Positions 41,739 through 51,773 of a stretch of DNA of 64,000 nt are shown here, in pieces. Made by a program: the position numbers and the translations under genes. The notes beneath the pieces are model-generated. The model worked only from the letters and a program-made list of their open reading frames with translations. It ran no database searches and was not told where the DNA came from. The stretch is from positions 1-64,000 of the forward strand of contig JAHBUL010000011.1 in assembly GCA_019638085.1 (NCBI GenBank), read 5' to 3'. Numbering within the stretch: position 1 is the stretch's first letter; every line of letters starts with the position of its first letter. This DNA is from Flavobacteriales bacterium (GTDB lineage Bacteria > Bacteroidota > Bacteroidia > Flavobacteriales_F > PHOS-HE28).

Positions 41739-42929
41739 ATGAAGATCATTGAGGCCAGCGAAGGAAAACCATTGCACGACTGGATGCGCGTGCCGTGGCG
41801 GATCTATGCCAACGACCCGAACTGGGTGCCCCACCTGAAGCAGGATGTGGAGAAGGTCTTCGACCCCGGAAAGAACAAATTGTTACAGGCCCGCAAAGAC
41901 CGGAAGGCCGGGGCGATCAAGCGCTGGGTGCTATATGATGATGCGGGGCAAGCTGCCGGAAGGATCGCCGCCTTCATCGACCCCAAAACGGCCTGGACCG
42001 ATAAGCAACAGCCAACCGGAGGGTGCGGCTTCTTTGAATGTATCGAGGACCAAAGAGCGGCCGATCTGCTCTTCGACACGGCACGGGACTGGCTGAAGGC
42101 CCAAGGGCTTGAAGCGATGGACGGACCGGTGAACCTGGGCGAACGCAACATGTTCTGGGGCCTGCTGATCGAGAATTTCAAGGATCTGCCGATCTACGGC
42201 ACGAACTACAATCCGCCGTACTACGTGGAGCTTTTCGAGGCCTATGGCTTCCAGATCTACTTCAAGCAGCTCTTCTTCAAACGCTCCGCGATCACTCCGG
42301 TGCAGCCCATCTTCCACCGCAAGTACAAGCAGTTCCAGGATGACCCGGACATTTCGGTCCGCGATGTGCGCGGCATGAGCTCCGAACAACTGGCAGAGGA
42401 CTTCCGCACCGTGCTCAATGCCGCTTGGGTGGACCACGAGAACTTCAAGCCCATGCCCAAGGAGGTGGCGCTGAAGACGATCAAGCAGATGAAGCCGGTG
42501 ATGGATCCGCGGATCGTGGTTTTCGTTTACCACAAGGAGAAGCCCATCGCCTTCTTCGTGAACCTGCCGGAGCTGAACGAGATCTTCCGGTTCGTGAACG
42601 GCAACCTCAACTGGCTGGGCAAGCTCAAGTTCCTGTGGCACAAGTGGAAGGGCACATCGAAAACGATGACCGGAATTGTGTTCGGCGTGGTGAAGGAGTG
42701 GCAGGGCAAAGGCGTGGAGGGCGTGATGATCGTCCATACCAGCAAATGGCTGATGGAAACGGGTCGTTATAACGACACGGTGCTGACCTGGATCGGCGAT
42801 TTCAACCCGAAGATGTTGCGGGTCTGCGAAAGCCTCGGGGCCACCAACTACCGCACTTTGGCCACCTATCGCTATCTATTCGACCGGAGCAAACCCTTTG
42901 AGCGGTTGCCGTTGATCGCGAAGAATTGA
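41739..42929 (+). CDS. GNAT-like acyltransferase family protein
   Basis: This 396-residue cytoplasmic protein belongs to an uncharacterised Bacteroidota/actinobacterial family with a GNAT-type fold. The N-terminal part (1-60) has HDWMRVPWRIYANDPNWVP; the middle has MDGPVNLGERNMFWG; the C-terminal half shows GVVKEWQGKGVEGVMI (near 315-330), similar to the acyl-CoA-binding R/QxxGxG/A loop of GNAT enzymes. Many relatives are said to be N-acyl transferases, but substrate is unknown. The ATG at 41739 follows the same CGACCTTCGC box as the truncated copy at 41101; the ATG at 41709 lies upstream of this box and is unlikely. Confidence 0.82.
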   Translation: MKIIEASEGKPLHDWMRVPWRIYANDPNWVPHLKQDVEKVFDPGKNKLLQARKDRKAGAIKRWVLYDDAGQAAGRIAAFIDPKTAWTDKQQPTGGCGFFECIEDQRAADLLFDTARDWLKAQGLEAMDGPVNLGERNMFWGLLIENFKDLPIYGTNYNPPYYVELFEAYGFQIYFKQLFFKRSAITPVQPIFHRKYKQFQDDPDISVRDVRGMSSEQLAEDFRTVLNAAWVDHENFKPMPKEVALKTIKQMKPVMDPRIVVFVYHKEKPIAFFVNLPELNEIFRFVNGNLNWLGKLKFLWHKWKGTSKTMTGIVFGVVKEWQGKGVEGVMIVHTSKWLMETGRYNDTVLTWIGDFNPKMLRVCESLGATNYRTLATYRYLFDRSKPFERLPLIAKN

Positions 42930-43006
42930 ACAATTGCTTGCTGAAGTGGGTTGGATGTTTACCTTCGCGCCCTCAAAACGCAGAACACGGTTGTGCAACG
43001 CATTTT

Positions 43007-43079
43007 GATCCTGTAGCTCAGCTGGTAGAGCAATACACTTTTAATGTATGGGCCCTGGGTTCGAATCCCAGCGGGATCA
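43007..43079 (+). tRNA. tRNA-Lys (anticodon TTT)
   Basis: The 73 bases fold as a full cloverleaf: acceptor GATCCTG/CGGGATC, D-arm with AGCTGGTAGAGC, anticodon stem ATACA/TGTAT around loop CTTTTAA with anticodon TTT at 43040-43042, and T-arm GGGTTCGAATCCC. The discriminator is A; the CCA end is not encoded. One lysine codon family (AAA/AAG) is read. Confidence 0.98.
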
Positions 43080-43080
43080 C

Positions 43081-43108
43081 AAAGACCTCGGCGAAAGCCG
43101 GGGTCTTT
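43081..43108 (+). terminator. Hairpin after tRNA-Lys
   Basis: AAAGACCTCGGC and GCCGGGGTCTTT flank a GAAA loop with one mismatch, directly after the tRNA. A long T-tract is missing. It likely ends the tRNA transcript. Confidence 0.65.
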
Positions 43109-43224
43109 GTCGTTAAAATACGCCGACGGCAAGTGCCGCGAAGCGGAACCATTGAACTTCTTCCTCAACACGTGGAGGGTTCGATCCAAGTGACATTTAT
43201 CACTTTCAGCAGTGGGCATCCACA

Positions 43225-43233
43225 TACCTTTGC
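43225..43233 (+). promoter_or_regulatory. -7 promoter box directly on the His-rich gene start
   Basis: TACCTTTGC fits TAnnTTTGC exactly and ends immediately before ATG at 43234. Transcription would start within or at the start codon, so the mRNA is likely leaderless. Confidence 0.55.
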
Positions 43234-43626
43234 ATGAGCACCAAGCGCATGCGACGTTCAATCGCCATATTCCTTTTGGGGATCTTCCTCTCCAGCACCA
43301 CGGAGGCACATCAGTTGTTGAAGTTGCCTGCGTTGTTCGAGCATTTATCCGAGCACCAGGAGGATGGCCCCATGAGCTGGATGGAATTCATGTCGGAGCA
43401 TTATCTCCATGCGGGGGATCACGCTGACCGGGACCATCATCACCACAACCTCCCCTTCCATTCCGACAATCATAACGGAACCCAAACCATTCAGGCGCGA
43501 CTTCCCGAAACATCTTCATTGAGCTTCGCTATCCTGAACGGATTGGACGTTGAGTTGATCTCGATGGATGAGCGCATGCCGATCCGGAACGGATTGGATG
43601 ACGTCTGGCAGCCGCCACGCATGTAG
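43234..43626 (+). CDS. His-rich secreted protein at the head of the metal-efflux operon
   Basis: This 130-residue protein has a signal peptide (residues 8-24, IAIFLLGIFLSSTTEA) and a His/Asp-rich middle (HLSEH, HYLHAGDHADRDHHHH at residues 56-71, HSDNHNG), which would bind divalent metals. Proteins like it precede czcA in other Bacteroidota, but the family is unnamed. It probably scavenges or senses zinc, cobalt or cadmium in the periplasm. It starts right on a promoter box and lies 154 bases before the fused pump gene; a 32-base inverted repeat lies between. Confidence 0.78.
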   Translation: MSTKRMRRSIAIFLLGIFLSSTTEAHQLLKLPALFEHLSEHQEDGPMSWMEFMSEHYLHAGDHADRDHHHHNLPFHSDNHNGTQTIQARLPETSSLSFAILNGLDVELISMDERMPIRNGLDDVWQPPRM

Positions 43627-43688: not shown

Positions 43689-43720
43689 GTAGTACAGTCG
43701 ACCCATTGGGTCGACACTAC
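43689..43720. promoter_or_regulatory. 32-base inverted repeat between the His-rich gene and czcA
   Basis: Outer arms GTAGT/ACTAC and inner arms GTCGACCCA/TGGGTCGAC around a single T, with a 3-base bulge on the left. It could be an operator for a metal-responsive repressor, an attenuator, or a terminator ending the first gene. No regulator gene is in the operon. Call is based on symmetry alone. Confidence 0.4.
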
Positions 43721-43780: not shown

Positions 43781-46700
43781 ATGATCGATCGCATCATCAC
43801 ATTCAGTGTTCGCAACAAGCTGATCACCGGCTTGCTGCTCCTGGCCTTCATCGGCTGGGGTGCTTGGTCCGTCACCCAGTTGCCCATCGACGCGCTGCCG
43901 GACGTCACCAACAACCAGGTGCTGGTGAACACCATTGCTCCCAACCTCGCCACGCAGGAGGTGGAACAGTTCATCACGTTTCCGCTGGAGCAGGCTTTCA
44001 AGAACCTGCCCGATGTGGTGGAATTGCGCAGCGTATCGCGCAGCGGCCTGTCCGTGATCACGATCGTGTTCAAGGACGAGGTGCCGCTCTACCTCACACG
44101 CCAGCTGGTGGCAGAGCGCATCACGCAGGTGCAGGAGCAGATCCCGCCGGGTTATGGCACACCCGAGATCGCTCCACCCACCACCGGAACCGGCGAGATC
44201 TACCAATACACCCTTGCCGTGGACAGCGCCCACAAAGGCAAATATGACCTCTTGGAACTGCGCACGTTGCAGGACTGGGTGGTGCGCAAACACTTGCTGG
44301 GCGTGCCCGGAGTGATCGACGTGAGCAGCTTCGGGGGCTATTTGAAACAGTATGAGGTGAGCGTGGATGCACGGCGGTTGGCAGGTGCCGGTCTTTCGCT
44401 GATCGACGTCTTCAACGCGTTGGAGAGCAACAACGCCAACACCGGCGGGAGCTACATCGAGAAGGGGCCGAACATGTACTTCATCCGGGGTGAAGGCGTG
44501 ATCAACTCCCTGAAGGACATCGAGGAGGTGGTGATCGATGCGCGTGGTGGCAGTCCGGTGCGGGTGCGGGATGTGGCCGAGGTGCGCTTCGGGCACGCCA
44601 TCCGCTACGGCGCCATGACGCGCAACGGCGAAGGAGAGACGGTGGGTGGCGTGGTGCTCATGCTGAAAGGCGCGAATGCCCTGGCTACCGTCACTGCCGT
44701 GAAGGAACGGGTGAAGGAGGTGGAGCACAGCCTACCTGAAGGCGTGTACATCGATGCCTTCGTGGACCGATCCAAGCTGGTGGACAAGACCATTGGCACG
44801 GTAGAGCACAACTTGCTGATGGGTGCCCTGATCGTGATCGTAGTGCTCGTGTTCCTATTGGGCAACTGGCGCGCTGGCCTCATCGTGGCCAGTGTGATCC
44901 CGCTCGCCTTGCTCTTCGCCATCGGCTGCATGGTGGTGGCCGGGCAAAGCGCCAACCTGATGAGCATGGGCGCATTGGACTTCGGCCTGATCGTGGATGG
45001 CGCGGTGATCGTTACGGAAGGCATGCTCTTCGCACTGCACCAACGCTTCGCAGGGCAGCGGCTGAGTGCGGCCCAACTGGATTCGGAGACCATCCGTGGC
45101 GCGGGGGGTATCATGAAGAGCGCCGTGTTCGGCCAAGTGATCATCCTCATCGTTTATGTTCCCATTTTCGCACTGATCGGCGTGGAGGGGAAGATGTTCC
45201 GTCCCATGGCCTTCACCGTGAGCTTCGCGATCATCGGCGCCCTGATCATGAGCCTTACCTACGTGCCATGGGCGGTATCCATCTTCATGAACAAGGACGT
45301 GCCCAAAGGCGAAAGCTGGAGCGAGCGCATGATCCACCGCTTGCAGAACTGGTATGCGCCGAAGCTGCGTGCCTCCTTACGGCATCGCCGGGCGGTGCTT
45401 GTGGGTGCACTGGCATTGCTGGTGATCGCTCTTTGGACCTTCGATAGGCTGGGCGGCGAATTCATCCCGGAATTGGATGAAGGCGATTTCGCCACCAGCG
45501 TCACCATCCGGCAAGGCAGCAACCTGAGCCAGAGCATCGCGGTAAGCGACCAGTTAGCCCGCATCCTGATGGCGGAATTCCCCGAAGTGAAGGAGGTGGT
45601 GGGCAAGATCGGGAGCAGCGAGATCCCTACCGACCCCATGCCGGTGGAAGCCCAGGATTTGATCATCGTGATGAAGGACCGAAAGGATTGGAAGACGACG
45701 CAGGACAGGGAGCAGATGGCCGAATTGATGAATGAGAAGATGAGCGTGATCCCGGGGATGCACCTCAGCTTCGAGCAACCGATCCAGATGCGCTTCAATG
45801 AACTGATCGCCGGGGTGAAGAGCGACATCGCCGTGAAGATCTACGGGGACGACCTCGATGAGCTTTTCACGACCGCCAATGCAGCTGCGGCGTTGATCGC
45901 CACCGTGCCCGGCGCCACGGACATCAAGGTGGAGCAGGTGACCGGCATGCCGCAGTTGGTGGTGAAATACGACCGCTCGCGCATGGCCCAGTACGGGCTG
46001 AACATCGCCGACCTGAACCGCGTGCTGAACACCGCACTGGCCGGCGGGAACGCAGGCGTGGTCTATGAAGCGGAGCGTCGCTTCGACCTCGTGGTGCGGA
46101 TGGCCGACATGCGGGATGCCGACCCGGAGAAAATGAAGAACCTCCTCATCCCGTTACCCAACGGTTCGCAGATGCCCTTGGGCCAACTCGCTCACATCAG
46201 CTTCCAGAACGGTGCCGCGCAAGTGAGCCGGGAGAACGGTGCACGCAGGATCGTGGTGGAGACCAACGTGCGCGGCCGCGACATTCAGAGCACCGCAAAA
46301 GACATCCAGGCCTTGGTCGAGCACAAGCTCATACTGCCCACTGGTTATTTCGTCGGCTATGGAGGCACCTTCAAGAACTTGCAACAGGCCAGCGCGCGCC
46401 TTCTTCTTACCGTCCCCTTGGCTCTGGCGCTGATCTTCGTGCTTCTCTTCTTCGCGTTCAAGTCCTTCAAAGAGGCACTGATCATCTTCAGCGCAGTGCC
46501 CATGGCAGCTGTGGGTGGCGTGTTCGCCCTGTGGCTGCGCGGCTTGGATTTCAGCATCAGCGCGGGCGTGGGCTTTATTGCGCTCTTCGGCGTGGCGGTG
46601 CTCAATGGCATTGTGCTCATCAGCTATTTCAACCAGCTGAAGAAGGAGGGCGTGGAGGATGTCACCGAGCGCGTGGTTCGCGGAACGTTGGCCCGTTTAC

Positions 46701-48211
46701 GGCCCGTATTGGCCACAGCGGCCGTGGCCTCGCTCGGTTTTCTGCCCATGGCGATAAGCACCAGTCCAGGCAGTGAAGTGCAACGCCCCTTGGCCACGGT
46801 GGTGATCGGCGGGCTCATCACTGCCACCTTGCTCACACTGGCTGTGCTGCCGGTACTTTATCACTTGGTGTTCTTCCGCAAGCGAAAGGAAGATGGTAAG
46901 GGAGGTGCTGGAGGTGCTGGAGGTGATGGAGGTGCTGGAGGTGCTGGAGGTGATGGAGGTGCTGGAGGTGATGGAGGTGATGGAGGTGAGGGAGGCGAAG
47001 GACGCGAAGGAGGTAAGGGAGGGCTTGGAATCGCGACGGCATCCGTGATCGCCTTGCTCTTCCTCGGAAACCCTGCGTACGCACAGGCTCCTCTGCTCTC
47101 GCTGGATAGGGCGGTCACACGGGCGCTGCGCATGCATCCGGCCATTTCCGCGTCGGAATTGGAGGTCCGGCAACAGGAAGCGCTACGAAAAACAGCGTTC
47201 CAACTTCAACCGCTCGGCGCACAACTCAAGGGCGGGCAGATCAACAGTTCCATCCAGGACATCGAACTGCAGGCCACTACCGGCATCCCCTTCCCCACTG
47301 CTATCGCCCAACGCAGCCGCTACCTGCGCGAAAGTGTGCGCTTGGCAGAGGCCGATCGCACGCGGATCCAGGCTGCCGTGAAGGAAAGTGCGGCCAGCGC
47401 ATACATACAGTGGGCCATGGGTGTGGAGCAAGCCCGACTGTTGCAGCGCGCCGATAGCTCCTTTGCCATGCTTGCGTCCGTCGCTGCGCGCAAATTCGAG
47501 GCGGGACAAAGTGGCCGCTTGGAAATGATCAGTGCACGCAGCAGCGCCGACCAAGCTCATGTGCAGTGGCGTAGGGCCGTCGGCGACATCGCCATTCATG
47601 CAGCGGAGCTGGAACAATGGATCGGCCCTTTGGAGGGCGCGGTTCCGGACACATCCTCGCTAGCCGCCACTGCCCTCCTCCCTGCTCCCGACAGCGGTAC
47701 CGATCCGCAGCTCGCCACGGAAGAACAGCGGGCCAAGCTCGCTGAGGAGGAATGGAAAATGGAACGCAGCCAATGGGCACCCAGTATCCAAGGCGGGGCC
47801 TTCTACCAAACGATCGATGGTACAGCACCTTATACGGGCTATCTCATCGGCACCTCCATCCCCTTGCCAGGAAGTGGGCAAGGTGCTCGCACGAAGGCCG
47901 CACGGTTACGTAGTGAGATCGCGCTGCAGCAATTGGATGAACTCCGCCGAAGCCGTACTACTGAATTGGCAAGGACCCGTTCCCGGCTGGAGCAACTGCG
48001 TGAAAGCTTGGCCTATTATGAAGGCTCTGGAACAGCAATGGCAAATGCACTCCGCAATGATGCCGAACGCGCGTACCGCAACGGCGATGCCGGCTATCTG
48101 GAATTCATTCAAGGCATCGAGCAAGCGCGGCTCATAGAAGTCGAGCATCTGCGCATCCGCTACGAACTCGCACTCACCATGATCCACCTCAACGCCCTGA
48201 TGGGGCAGTAA
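43781..48211 (+). CDS. czcA: CzcA-type RND metal pump fused to a TolC-family channel
   Basis: This 1476-residue polypeptide starts with a 12-segment RND pump (about 1-1035). The TM4 motif DFGLIVDG (D400, D406) belongs to the HME1/HME2 class that moves Zn, Co, Cd or Ni rather than monovalent Cu/Ag. Next comes a repeat of 14 GGX triplets (1041-1082) and a signal-peptide-like stretch: REGGKGGLG, hydrophobic 1084-1096, then NPAYA-QA with a type I signal-peptidase site after A1101. Residues 1102-1476 form a TolC/CzcC outer-membrane factor (LLSLDRAVTRALRMHP at the start). Fusions of this kind occur in Bacteroidota. Processing at 1101 is inferred. It is followed by the periplasmic adaptor gene. Confidence 0.93.
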   Translation: MIDRIITFSVRNKLITGLLLLAFIGWGAWSVTQLPIDALPDVTNNQVLVNTIAPNLATQEVEQFITFPLEQAFKNLPDVVELRSVSRSGLSVITIVFKDEVPLYLTRQLVAERITQVQEQIPPGYGTPEIAPPTTGTGEIYQYTLAVDSAHKGKYDLLELRTLQDWVVRKHLLGVPGVIDVSSFGGYLKQYEVSVDARRLAGAGLSLIDVFNALESNNANTGGSYIEKGPNMYFIRGEGVINSLKDIEEVVIDARGGSPVRVRDVAEVRFGHAIRYGAMTRNGEGETVGGVVLMLKGANALATVTAVKERVKEVEHSLPEGVYIDAFVDRSKLVDKTIGTVEHNLLMGALIVIVVLVFLLGNWRAGLIVASVIPLALLFAIGCMVVAGQSANLMSMGALDFGLIVDGAVIVTEGMLFALHQRFAGQRLSAAQLDSETIRGAGGIMKSAVFGQVIILIVYVPIFALIGVEGKMFRPMAFTVSFAIIGALIMSLTYVPWAVSIFMNKDVPKGESWSERMIHRLQNWYAPKLRASLRHRRAVLVGALALLVIALWTFDRLGGEFIPELDEGDFATSVTIRQGSNLSQSIAVSDQLARILMAEFPEVKEVVGKIGSSEIPTDPMPVEAQDLIIVMKDRKDWKTTQDREQMAELMNEKMSVIPGMHLSFEQPIQMRFNELIAGVKSDIAVKIYGDDLDELFTTANAAAALIATVPGATDIKVEQVTGMPQLVVKYDRSRMAQYGLNIADLNRVLNTALAGGNAGVVYEAERRFDLVVRMADMRDADPEKMKNLLIPLPNGSQMPLGQLAHISFQNGAAQVSRENGARRIVVETNVRGRDIQSTAKDIQALVEHKLILPTGYFVGYGGTFKNLQQASARLLLTVPLALALIFVLLFFAFKSFKEALIIFSAVPMAAVGGVFALWLRGLDFSISAGVGFIALFGVAVLNGIVLISYFNQLKKEGVEDVTERVVRGTLARLRPVLATAAVASLGFLPMAISTSPGSEVQRPLATVVIGGLITATLLTLAVLPVLYHLVFFRKRKEDGKGGAGGAGGDGGAGGAGGDGGAGGDGGDGGEGGEGREGGKGGLGIATASVIALLFLGNPAYAQAPLLSLDRAVTRALRMHPAISASELEVRQQEALRKTAFQLQPLGAQLKGGQINSSIQDIELQATTGIPFPTAIAQRSRYLRESVRLAEADRTRIQAAVKESAASAYIQWAMGVEQARLLQRADSSFAMLASVAARKFEAGQSGRLEMISARSSADQAHVQWRRAVGDIAIHAAELEQWIGPLEGAVPDTSSLAATALLPAPDSGTDPQLATEEQRAKLAEEEWKMERSQWAPSIQGGAFYQTIDGTAPYTGYLIGTSIPLPGSGQGARTKAARLRSEIALQQLDELRRSRTTELARTRSRLEQLRESLAYYEGSGTAMANALRNDAERAYRNGDAGYLEFIQGIEQARLIEVEHLRIRYELALTMIHLNALMGQ
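46901..47026 (+). repeat. 9-base minisatellite encoding GGX triplets
   Basis: Fourteen units of GGAGGTGnT-type, the first ten near perfect (GGAGGTGCT or GGAGGTGAT) and the last four diverged. Each unit is three codons, so copy-number change keeps the frame. It encodes the linker of the CzcA-channel fusion. Confidence 0.95.
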
Positions 48212-48282: not shown

Positions 48283-49443
48283 ATGAAAAAGCACTTCCTT
48301 CCTCTTCTTCTCGCCACAGCATTGCTCACCGCATGCGGCGGTGTGGCTGATCCTACCGGCACCCCCGATGACCACGCGAACGGATCCGCTGTAAACGGAG
48401 AGGTCCACCTCACCACCGAGCAGATCGCAGCGATCGGGCTGGTAACCGGCCAGATGGAAAAGCGGGGATTGTCCACTGCGCTGAAGGCCAACGGCCGCCT
48501 CGTGCTTCCACCGGACAAGAGTGCGCAAGTGAGCGTGCTGTTCGGTGGCCTTGTGCGTGGGATCCCCGTGCAGGAAGGACAAGCCATAACGAAAGGCCAA
48601 GTACTCGCCACCATGGAGAACATGGAATTCCTGCAACTCCAGCAGGATTATCTGGAGGCGAAAGCCAACCAGCTCGCGCTCAGTGCGGACCTGAAACGCC
48701 AACAGGACCTGCATGATGAGCGCATCAACGCCACCAAGACGTTGGAACGTGCACAAGCGGATCAGGCCATCACCCAAGCCAAGCTGGCGGGTATGGCCGC
48801 GAAGCTTCGTCTCTTCGGCATCGACCCTGCCCGGCTTTCCGCAGAGAACATCAGCTCCACCTATGCGGTGCGATCGCCGATCGCGGGCAACCTGCAGCAG
48901 ATCGCGGTGACCTTGGGCCAGTTCGCCGAGCCGAACAAGCCGCTTTTCCACATTGTGGATAACAGCGGCCTACACATCGACCTCAGCATCTTCGAGCAGG
49001 ATGTGGCTCGGGTCCACAAAGGCCAGAAGGTGGTCTTCGGCCATGCCGGAGAACCGGTAGGCCAGCACACGGCCACGGTATACGCGGTGAACAAGGCCTT
49101 CGAAAGTGATCGACAGGCCATACTTGTTCACGCCAAGCTGGATGACGACGGTGAGGAGCTTATGCCGGGCATGTACATCGAGGCGTTGATCATGACCGAC
49201 AGCACCCGTGCATGGAGCCTACCCAGCGATGCCATCGTAAGCAATGGCGACGAACACTACATCTTTGTGGAGGCTTCACCGCGCAGCTACAAACAGATGA
49301 GCGTACGCACCGGAGCCAACGAATTGGGTTATACCGAAGTGATCCCGCTACAACCCCTTGCGCCGGAAGCAAATGTGGTAGTGAAGGGCGCATATTACCT
49401 GCTCAGCGAACTGACCAAAGGCACCGGAGAGGACGATCATTGA
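48283..49443 (+). CDS. czcB: Periplasmic adaptor (membrane fusion) protein of the metal pump
   Basis: This 386-residue lipoprotein (lipobox LLTAC, C18) is the adaptor linking the RND pump and the outer-membrane channel. A barrel-sandwich lipoyl part has LVRGIPVQEGQAITKGQVLATME (near 87-110), then a short coiled coil (about 112-165, LQLQQDYLEAKANQLALSADLKR-like), then YAVRSPIAGNLQQIAV and further barrel domains. No C-terminal metal-chaperone domain is seen, and His/Met-rich segments are limited to DDHANG. It is 71 bases after the pump gene. Adaptor, pump and channel would form the tripartite complex. Confidence 0.92.
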   Translation: MKKHFLPLLLATALLTACGGVADPTGTPDDHANGSAVNGEVHLTTEQIAAIGLVTGQMEKRGLSTALKANGRLVLPPDKSAQVSVLFGGLVRGIPVQEGQAITKGQVLATMENMEFLQLQQDYLEAKANQLALSADLKRQQDLHDERINATKTLERAQADQAITQAKLAGMAAKLRLFGIDPARLSAENISSTYAVRSPIAGNLQQIAVTLGQFAEPNKPLFHIVDNSGLHIDLSIFEQDVARVHKGQKVVFGHAGEPVGQHTATVYAVNKAFESDRQAILVHAKLDDDGEELMPGMYIEALIMTDSTRAWSLPSDAIVSNGDEHYIFVEASPRSYKQMSVRTGANELGYTEVIPLQPLAPEANVVVKGAYYLLSELTKGTGEDDH

Positions 49444-49853: not shown

Positions 49854-51773
49854 ATGGGTCACAGCCATGAGCACGCTCCATCTGGAGGCCACAGCGTTTG
49901 GCAGGACCGCAAATTCCTCTTCCTGTTCGTGGCCGTGGTGGTGGTCGTGGTTTTCGAGACCTTCTCATTGCTTGGCGTAGATCTGCCCATGCCATGGGCC
50001 CCGATCTTCTTCGGGGCGTTCATCCTTGTCGTGGGCTGGGAGGTGCTTTGGGAAGGCTTGAAAGCTTTGTTCAAACTGCGCTTCAGCAGCATCAACTTGT
50101 TGATGTTGATCGCCGTCGTGGGAGCCTTCCACCTGCACCAATTTCCCGAGGCAGCTGTGGTGATCACCCTCTATGCGCTGGGCGAAAAGCTGGAGGACAT
50201 CGGTATTTCGCGGAGCAAAAGCGCGCTTGATGATCTGGTCAGCAGCATGCCCAAGGTGGTCACACTGAAGGATGGCTCCACACTTCCCATCGAACAGGTA
50301 TCCATCGGTAGTACGGTGCTGGTAAAACCGGGCGAGATGATCCCCTTGGACGGGGTGGTGACGGCCGGGCGCAGCGCGGTGGACGAGGCCACCATCACCG
50401 GTGAACCCTTACCGAAGGACAAGCGCGTGGATGATGTTGTCTACGGTGGAACGCTGAACCGCCTAGGCGTACTGGAGGTGCGTACAACGCGCTCCAACAT
50501 GGACACCACGTTGGCGCGTATCGTGCAGCTCACGTTCGCGGCGCGCTCGAACCGCAGCCATGCGCAGCGCTTCATTGAGCGCTTCGCACGCATCTACACC
50601 CCTTCGGTATTGGTGATGGCCATCATGCTGGTGGTGATCCCCGTGGTCCTGATGGGCCAACCCTTTGACCCTTGGTTCCGGCAGGCGATCACCATCCTTG
50701 TGATCGCTTGTCCATGCGCCTTGGTGATCAGCACGCCAGTGGCCATATACAGTGCCATCGGCAATGCCGGGGCGAAAGGAGCCGTGATCAAGGGCGGCAA
50801 ATACCTCGAAGCATTGGCCGGGTTGAAAGTGATCAGCCTGGACAAAACGCGCACGCTCACCCATGGCCAGCCCGTGGTGGAGGATGTGATCACCTTCGGC
50901 CAAACCACGGAAGCCGAATTATTGGGTTGTGCCGCCGGAGCAGAACTCTTCAGCGAGCACCCTTTGGCCGAGGCCATTGTGGCGCGTTCGCGAGCGGATG
51001 GCCATGACCCGCATGCCGTGGAGAACTTCATTAGCACCATGGGCAAAGGGGTCCACGCGGATTGCTTGGTGTGCGACCACGATGCCATCATGGTGGGCAA
51101 ACTGGATTTCATCACCGAGGACAGGAAAGCCCAGCCCGAAGCAGAGAAGGCCGTACTGGACCTACAAGCGCAAGGCAAAACCGCCATTGTAGTGAGCTTC
51201 GCTTCCGAAGTGGCCGGGGTCTTCGGCCTCACCGATCGCTTGCGGGAGGACAGCAAGCAGGCCGTAGCGGAGATCAAGGCCATTGGCCTGTTGCCCGTAA
51301 TGCTCACTGGCGATAACCAGAAGGCGGCGGATGAGATCGCCAAACAGGTGGATATCCAACAGGCCTATGGTGCGCTGCTCCCGGAGGGTAAGTCCGCGCG
51401 CATCGCAGCGCTTCAGGAAACCATTGGTCCTACAGCGCATGTGGGCGATGGCGTGAACGATGCACCTGCTTTGGCCACTTCCAGCGTGGGCATCGCCATG
51501 GGAGCATTGGGCAGCGATACCGCCATCGAGGTTGCCGATGTTGCGTTGATGAACGATGATCTGCGCTTGATCCCCTACCTCGTGCTGTTGTCAAGGGCCA
51601 CGTTGCGCCGGATCCGCTTCAATACGGCACTGGCCGTGGTGGTGAAGTTCCTTTTCCTGCTGCTGGCCGTAATGGGCAAGAGCCATCTGGTGCTGGCCAT
51701 CGCCGCCGATGTGGGTGTCACCTTGGTGGTGATCCTCACCAGCCTGCAGTTGATGCGCTGGAAACCGGCGTGA
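49854..51773 (+). CDS. P1B-type heavy-metal ATPase, Zn/Cd class
   Basis: This 639-residue ATPase pumps divalent metal from cytoplasm to periplasm. It has no ferredoxin-like metal domain; instead the N-terminus is His-rich (MGHSHEHAPSGGHS). Eight membrane segments, TGEPLPK actuator motif, CPC in TM6 (residues 286-288), SEHPLAEAI and GDGVNDAPAL are present. TM7 (NTALAVVVK) and TM8 (AADVGVTL) carry the Asn/Lys and DxG pattern of the Zn/Cd/Pb class (P1B-2). The phosphorylation motif reads DKTRTLT with D330; the usual Gly is Arg333. This may be lineage-normal or a change with effect. It is the last gene of the metal operon. Confidence 0.93.
   Translation: MGHSHEHAPSGGHSVWQDRKFLFLFVAVVVVVVFETFSLLGVDLPMPWAPIFFGAFILVVGWEVLWEGLKALFKLRFSSINLLMLIAVVGAFHLHQFPEAAVVITLYALGEKLEDIGISRSKSALDDLVSSMPKVVTLKDGSTLPIEQVSIGSTVLVKPGEMIPLDGVVTAGRSAVDEATITGEPLPKDKRVDDVVYGGTLNRLGVLEVRTTRSNMDTTLARIVQLTFAARSNRSHAQRFIERFARIYTPSVLVMAIMLVVIPVVLMGQPFDPWFRQAITILVIACPCALVISTPVAIYSAIGNAGAKGAVIKGGKYLEALAGLKVISLDKTRTLTHGQPVVEDVITFGQTTEAELLGCAAGAELFSEHPLAEAIVARSRADGHDPHAVENFISTMGKGVHADCLVCDHDAIMVGKLDFITEDRKAQPEAEKAVLDLQAQGKTAIVVSFASEVAGVFGLTDRLREDSKQAVAEIKAIGLLPVMLTGDNQKAADEIAKQVDIQQAYGALLPEGKSARIAALQETIGPTAHVGDGVNDAPALATSSVGIAMGALGSDTAIEVADVALMNDDLRLIPYLVLLSRATLRRIRFNTALAVVVKFLFLLLAVMGKSHLVLAIAADVGVTLVVILTSLQLMRWKPA

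Follow-up and report, generated by a model that had tools for sequence, protein, structure and literature searches.

Results

The window analyzed here, a 64,000-nucleotide stretch of contig JAHBUL010000011.1 from a Flavobacteriales bacterium, contains at 43781..48211 (plus strand) one frame that is open over 1476 codons without a stop. This fused CzcA-TolC gene, whose counterparts of 1437-1537 codons are found across the phylum, encodes in order a CzcA-type RND pump (residues 1-1038), a linker, an internal signal-peptide-like segment, and a TolC-fold channel (residues 1102-1476). The original prediction had read the single frame in this way, and Pfam, NCBIfam, and AlphaFold all confirm it. The AlphaFold model, which covers residues 1002-1476 and was built with 109 homologous rows, shows the last transmembrane helix of the pump (TM12). 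The linker behind it is disordered (pLDDT<50), residues 1083-1094 form a helix of 12 residues, and the TolC fold sets in at about residue 1102, with pLDDT>90.

The neighboring protein-coding genes lie on the same strand. Downstream are a CzcB-type periplasmic adaptor whose N-terminus resembles that of a lipoprotein (LLTAC; 48283..49443; TIGR01730, TIGR00999, HlyD_D23) and, in the same cluster, a Zn/Cd-type heavy-metal P-type ATPase (49854..51773; TIGR01525, TIGR01512). Fused pump, adaptor, and ATPase of the P type follow one another in this order on the Runella plasmid pRUNSL02 as well, where a hypothetical gene separates the adaptor from the ATPase. Upstream of the pump, at 43234..43626, is a gene for a His-rich, secreted-looking protein of 130 aa with a signal-like N-terminus. 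It has no Pfam or NCBIfam match. Its position is conserved, with relatives immediately preceding the fused gene in about 18 of the 80 named-species loci (tblastn, E<0.01), and it may bind metal in the periplasm or serve the operon as a sensor. Between this gene and the pump, a near-perfect palindrome around GTCGACCCATTGGGTCGAC occupies 43692-43720, and a few similar copies occur elsewhere in the genome. Farther upstream lies a tRNA-Lys (TTT) at 43007-43080, and the ORF that overlaps it (42926-43237) is probably not a gene.

The pump half (43781..46894) belongs to the CzcA/CusA-type heavy-metal RND family, matching TIGR00914 at full length (residues 1-1038) with 1164.5 bits against a curated cut-off of 701.45, and Pfam ACR_tran spans residues 5-1030 (E 1e-281). 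Its nearest solved structures are ZneA (4k0e, over residues 1-1037) and CusA (3k07, over 1-1035), and 12 transmembrane helices and a cytoplasmic C-terminus are therefore assigned by homology. TM12 itself (residues about 1006-1034; 46796..46882), placed by AlphaFold helix H5-33 and by homology to CusA and ZneA, leads into the cytoplasm and is followed by basic residues. Export of divalent metals by the pump would be consistent with its neighbors, the adaptor and the Zn/Cd ATPase.

The channel half (predicted mature residues 1102-1476, 375 aa; 47084..48208) carries a C-terminal Pfam OEP domain (81 bits, E 1e-22). Although a plain phmmer search with the channel sequence gave no convincing solved relative, a profile built from 109 fusions matched SilC, OprM, and CusC. 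In the model, the channel forms an entire TolC protomer, with four strands and two helices of 69 residues each (pLDDT above 90), and VIA-align superposed it on TolC (1ek9, Z 27.1) and CusC (3pik, Z 27.0) over 364-367 residues. Domain and fold together identify it as an outer membrane factor, which, to judge from the modeled fold, is presumably trimeric in the outer membrane. Further, model residue 105 (residue 1106 of the fusion) sits on residue 1 of mature Escherichia coli TolC; thus, the folded channel starts where the predicted cut between A1101 and Q1102 would leave it.

Between the two halves, the linker was present as the original prediction had described it, a GGX stretch of 42 residues, and proved to play no conserved part. 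Its core (46901..46999) is an in-frame minisatellite with the 9-nt unit GGAGGTGMT, for which TRF reports 13.6 copies over 46901-47022, and arrays of the 9-nt unit (GGAGGTGNN) also occur at C3:127211-127406, C1:471004-471100, and C8:3810-3915 of the same genome. The first of these sits just past the stop codon of another gene, whereas the array in the pump-channel gene enlarges the protein linker in frame. In L012, the closest homologue (75% identity across the aligned region), the linker is plain and 16 residues long, and near relatives in general carry unrelated, mostly shorter basic linkers; among the junctions read, that of L015 has a comparable repeat with another unit (GEE). Because the minisatellite is found elsewhere in the genome and is absent from near relatives, we regard the GGX linker as incidental and reject it as a functional module. 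Linker length among the fusions ranges from 4 to 56 residues with the frame open in all of them; the slot tolerates in-frame expansion, and the linker itself needs no function.

Behind the linker, a basic stretch, a hydrophobic core, and an NPAYA-Q motif are located where they had been predicted. The core (IATASVIALLFL, residues 1084-1095; 47030..47065) is evident in the sequence and in the 12-residue AlphaFold helix, and the predicted signal peptidase I site, A1099-Y1100-A1101/Q1102 (47075..47086), places A1101 at position -1 and Q1102 at +1. The n-region of this protein is weak near the core (K1079 and R1075, with E1073 and E1076 close by), which counts against a signal peptide. In Bacteroidetes, Gln is the residue exposed by signal peptidase I in a mean of 71% of its substrates, a pattern termed the Q-rule (PMC5837995), and the exposed Gln is cyclized to pyroglutamate by an inner-membrane cyclase (PMC5837995, PMC10653852). 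With small residues at -3 and -1 and Gln at +1 behind a hydrophobic core, A-Y-A/Q has the form of a Q-rule substrate.

This site is conserved in >200 homologous Bacteroidota genes, mostly from different species. A basic stretch and a hydrophobic core occur at the matching place in all 131 unique junctions, followed, with few exceptions, by small-x-small and Gln. In an alignment of 109 fusions (A1; mean column identity, 31%), the column of Q1102 holds Gln in 104 rows and is the fourth most conserved outside the pump; the -1 column holds A in 93 rows and A, S, or G in 107, the -3 column is mostly A/V/S/L/T/G, and -2 is unconstrained. Conservation reaches 0.95 at Q1102, versus means of 0.06 for the linker and 0.39 for the channel. 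A single motif rule for small-x-small plus Gln was satisfied by 91% of the 131 junctions and by 95% of 75 separately drawn named-species junctions, versus 3% of 869 transmembrane segments of CzcA pumps under the identical rule. A caller blind to Gln nevertheless placed Gln at +1 in 85% and 77% of these two junction sets, respectively, and shuffling the 21 residues behind the core left on average 37 of the 131 junctions with the motif (50 at most in 1000 trials), against 119 observed. A lack of the AxA site in homologous fusions had been named at the outset as a possible refutation; with a small -1 residue and a +1 Gln in nearly every aligned row, the claim stands. The decisive evidence, in our reading of the sequences, is the residue after the predicted cut: the conservation of Gln exactly here, in an otherwise little-constrained stretch, is most readily understood if the residue becomes a free N-terminus.

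The genome carries two signal peptidase I genes, which is in line with processing. Against it, a search of this genome for a plant-type glutaminyl cyclase found none, and the M28-family members present are cyclase candidates only. Lipidation of the channel, as in CusC and OprM, was rejected, as no lipobox-like motif occurs in the 131 junctions. In one fusion (junction at L102 889-2271), Cys replaces Gln at +1 (SAEA/C), possibly as part of an internal lipoprotein-type signal.

The fused arrangement is not peculiar to this locus and is the commonest form of the pump family in Bacteroidota. That fusions occur in the phylum had been anticipated; they turn out to be its usual form, with 129 fused and 18 split pumps in the deduplicated tree set. 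The same genome holds a second fusion on contig 23 (1440 aa), with the signal ...LLLFAASSAMA/QD and without a GGX linker, and most of the genus relatives with a match carry one or two. Among the CzcA matches listed for 296 genomes across the phylum, most frames have 1437-1537 codons and a minority 1031-1082. Of the 80 named-species loci that were drawn separately (Flavobacterium, Hymenobacter, Chitinophaga, Pedobacter, Sphingobacterium, Chryseobacterium, Prevotella, others, and one Melioribacteraceae), 75 are fusions. In RefSeq, WP_013931245.1 (Runella slithyformis, 1446 aa) is the same fused gene; its name, "CusA/CzcA family heavy metal efflux RND transporter," covers the pump only, and the record leaves the channel and the cut site without annotation.

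Where the pump is split, the channel is the adjacent gene in 13 of the 18 cases, and these adjacent channels have their own Met and a signal peptide at the place matching the internal signal, with Gln at +1 in 12 of the 13. The most similar pair, at 83% identity, consists of the split channel L047 (MKTSISTIFLLLISSFSLA/QNAQTLTLEQA) and the fused channel L056 (...KKMSKPIVTVIILLFSTFSFA/QNKQTVTLEQA). At the level of sequence, the internal signal is thus equivalent to the N-terminal signal peptides of the split homologues. A FastTree phylogeny of pump fragments (338 columns) required 12 state changes, of which supported branches force 8 or more. Under either root state, 10-11 of the changes run from fused to split, although the root and the direction of change are no more secure than parsimony on this tree allows. 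With about ten changes in that direction, the two halves have been repeatedly separated in evolution, and the fused form looks ancestral within the sample. Just ahead of the internal signal, 34 of the 131 junctions (L041, L053, L069, and others) have an in-frame ATG, in many cases with Lys or Ser as the next residue; it is probably a relic of the start codon that the channel had as a gene of its own.

Discussion

We consider it highly likely, from the comparison of homologous sequences, that this gene encodes a two-product envelope polyprotein, in which an internal Sec signal is cut by signal peptidase I and the channel is thereby freed to reach the outer membrane. Hence, the exporter is very probably synthesized in Bacteroidota as a single chain that is then cleaved into two. 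Under this model, the 12-helix CzcA pump would insert into the inner membrane with its C-terminus in the cytoplasm, and the basic linker of variable length would carry a second, internal Sec signal peptide that re-enters the translocon in an N-in/C-out orientation. Signal peptidase I would cut after A1101, and the exposed Gln1102 would be expected to cyclize to pyroglutamate, the usual outcome in Bacteroidota. Once released, the channel of 375 residues would move to the outer membrane, trimerize, and rejoin the trimeric pump via the CzcB adaptor encoded next door, such that one mRNA would yield pump and channel at 1:1. The originally predicted mechanism of an internal signal at which signal peptidase frees the channel thus finds support in two kinds of comparative evidence, the conservation of the site and the split homologues.

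A different fate of the internal segment would be to stay uncleaved as a thirteenth transmembrane anchor, leaving pump and channel as one covalent chain in the inner membrane. Being hydrophobic and preceded by positive charges, the segment could insert N-in/C-out; however, the modeled helix has just 12 residues, the strict conservation of A and Q would have no role in an anchor, and in the split homologues the channel is encoded as a free protein. The barrel of the channel in known tripartite pumps lies in the other membrane, across the periplasm. Here, about 10 residues (under about 40 Å) separate the end of the hydrophobic core from the folded channel, which does not span the periplasm, and a membrane-anchored channel therefore could not reach the outer membrane, if the architecture of tripartite pumps is a guide. 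We thus judge an uncleaved anchor to be quite improbable.

Alternatively, translation could start a second time inside the fused frame and produce the channel by itself, in which case the apparent polyprotein would be two overlapping gene products. An in-frame ATG does lie between TM12 and the core in 34 of the 131 fusions, but the other 97 have no such ATG, and internal initiation is therefore not general; 76 of the 131 have no ATG, GTG, or TTG there. In the 1476-codon protein, the only in-frame start-like codons are TTG1029 and GTG1030, within TM12, and GTG1089 and TTG1092, within the core. The frame, moreover, stays open across linkers of 4-56 residues in every fusion, and we consider separate translation very improbable. 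An artefact of assembly or annotation, in which a sequencing error fused two genes, is scarcely conceivable: nothing was found in favor of it, and it is refuted by homologues, with the same fusion in 129 sampled pumps, 75 further named-species loci, RefSeq records, and a second copy in the genome.

Returning to the cleaved polyprotein, we think it likely that the gene represents a phylum-wide class of tripartite efflux system, made from a polyprotein with a Q-rule signal cut by signal peptidase I, in which the fused form appears ancestral within the sample and split about ten times. Once cut, the pump would in this reading retain a cytoplasmic loop together with what is left of the signal peptide; this additional membrane segment at its C-terminus may be trimmed or have a part in assembly. 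If so, a large share of Bacteroidota metal exporters is incompletely annotated, with the channel unnamed inside "CzcA," and the stoichiometry of pump to channel would be fixed at translation. The pairs of fused and split genes then offer a natural set for testing why pump and channel levels must match, and the near-invariant Gln makes the processing directly testable by N-terminal proteomics.

In the literature searched, we found no description of the processing of an RND-outer membrane factor fusion and no report of two separate fragments for any of these fusions, although bioRxiv preprints and most papers of subscription journals lay outside its scope, which makes this weak evidence of novelty. 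Processing of such fusions is likewise not mentioned in the passages found of a review of tripartite efflux (PMC8277102) and of a survey of outer membrane pores (PMC4827864). A bacterial polyprotein that is processed by signal peptidase and sends one product to each membrane was not found in the literature searched.

The components themselves are those of CzcCBA and CusCFBA, with a CzcA-type pump, a CzcB-type adaptor, a channel of TolC/CusC fold, and a Zn/Cd P-type ATPase nearby. In those systems, however, the channel comes from a gene of its own and has an N-terminal signal (CusC and OprM are lipoproteins), whereas the channel described here follows the pump in one chain, behind an internal, putative signal peptidase I site. 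The predicted cut, small-x-small before Gln, resembles that of Q-rule substrates of signal peptidase I (PMC5837995, PMC10653852). In those substrates, however, the signal is N-terminal, while here it lies >1000 residues inside the protein, past 12 transmembrane helices.

Signal peptidase-processed polyproteins are rare in bacteria. The nearest precedent is FbcH of Bradyrhizobium japonicum, reportedly a cytochrome b/c1 polyprotein in which a polytopic part is followed by an internal signal and signal peptidase yields two subunits. The gene described here has the same architecture, a single ORF in which an internal signal sequence behind a polytopic membrane protein separates two subunits of one complex. 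FbcH, however, serves a respiratory complex, keeps both products in the inner membrane, and belongs to one bacterial group, whereas the fusion reported here belongs to an efflux pump, is predicted to send its second product to the outer membrane, and extends across a phylum.
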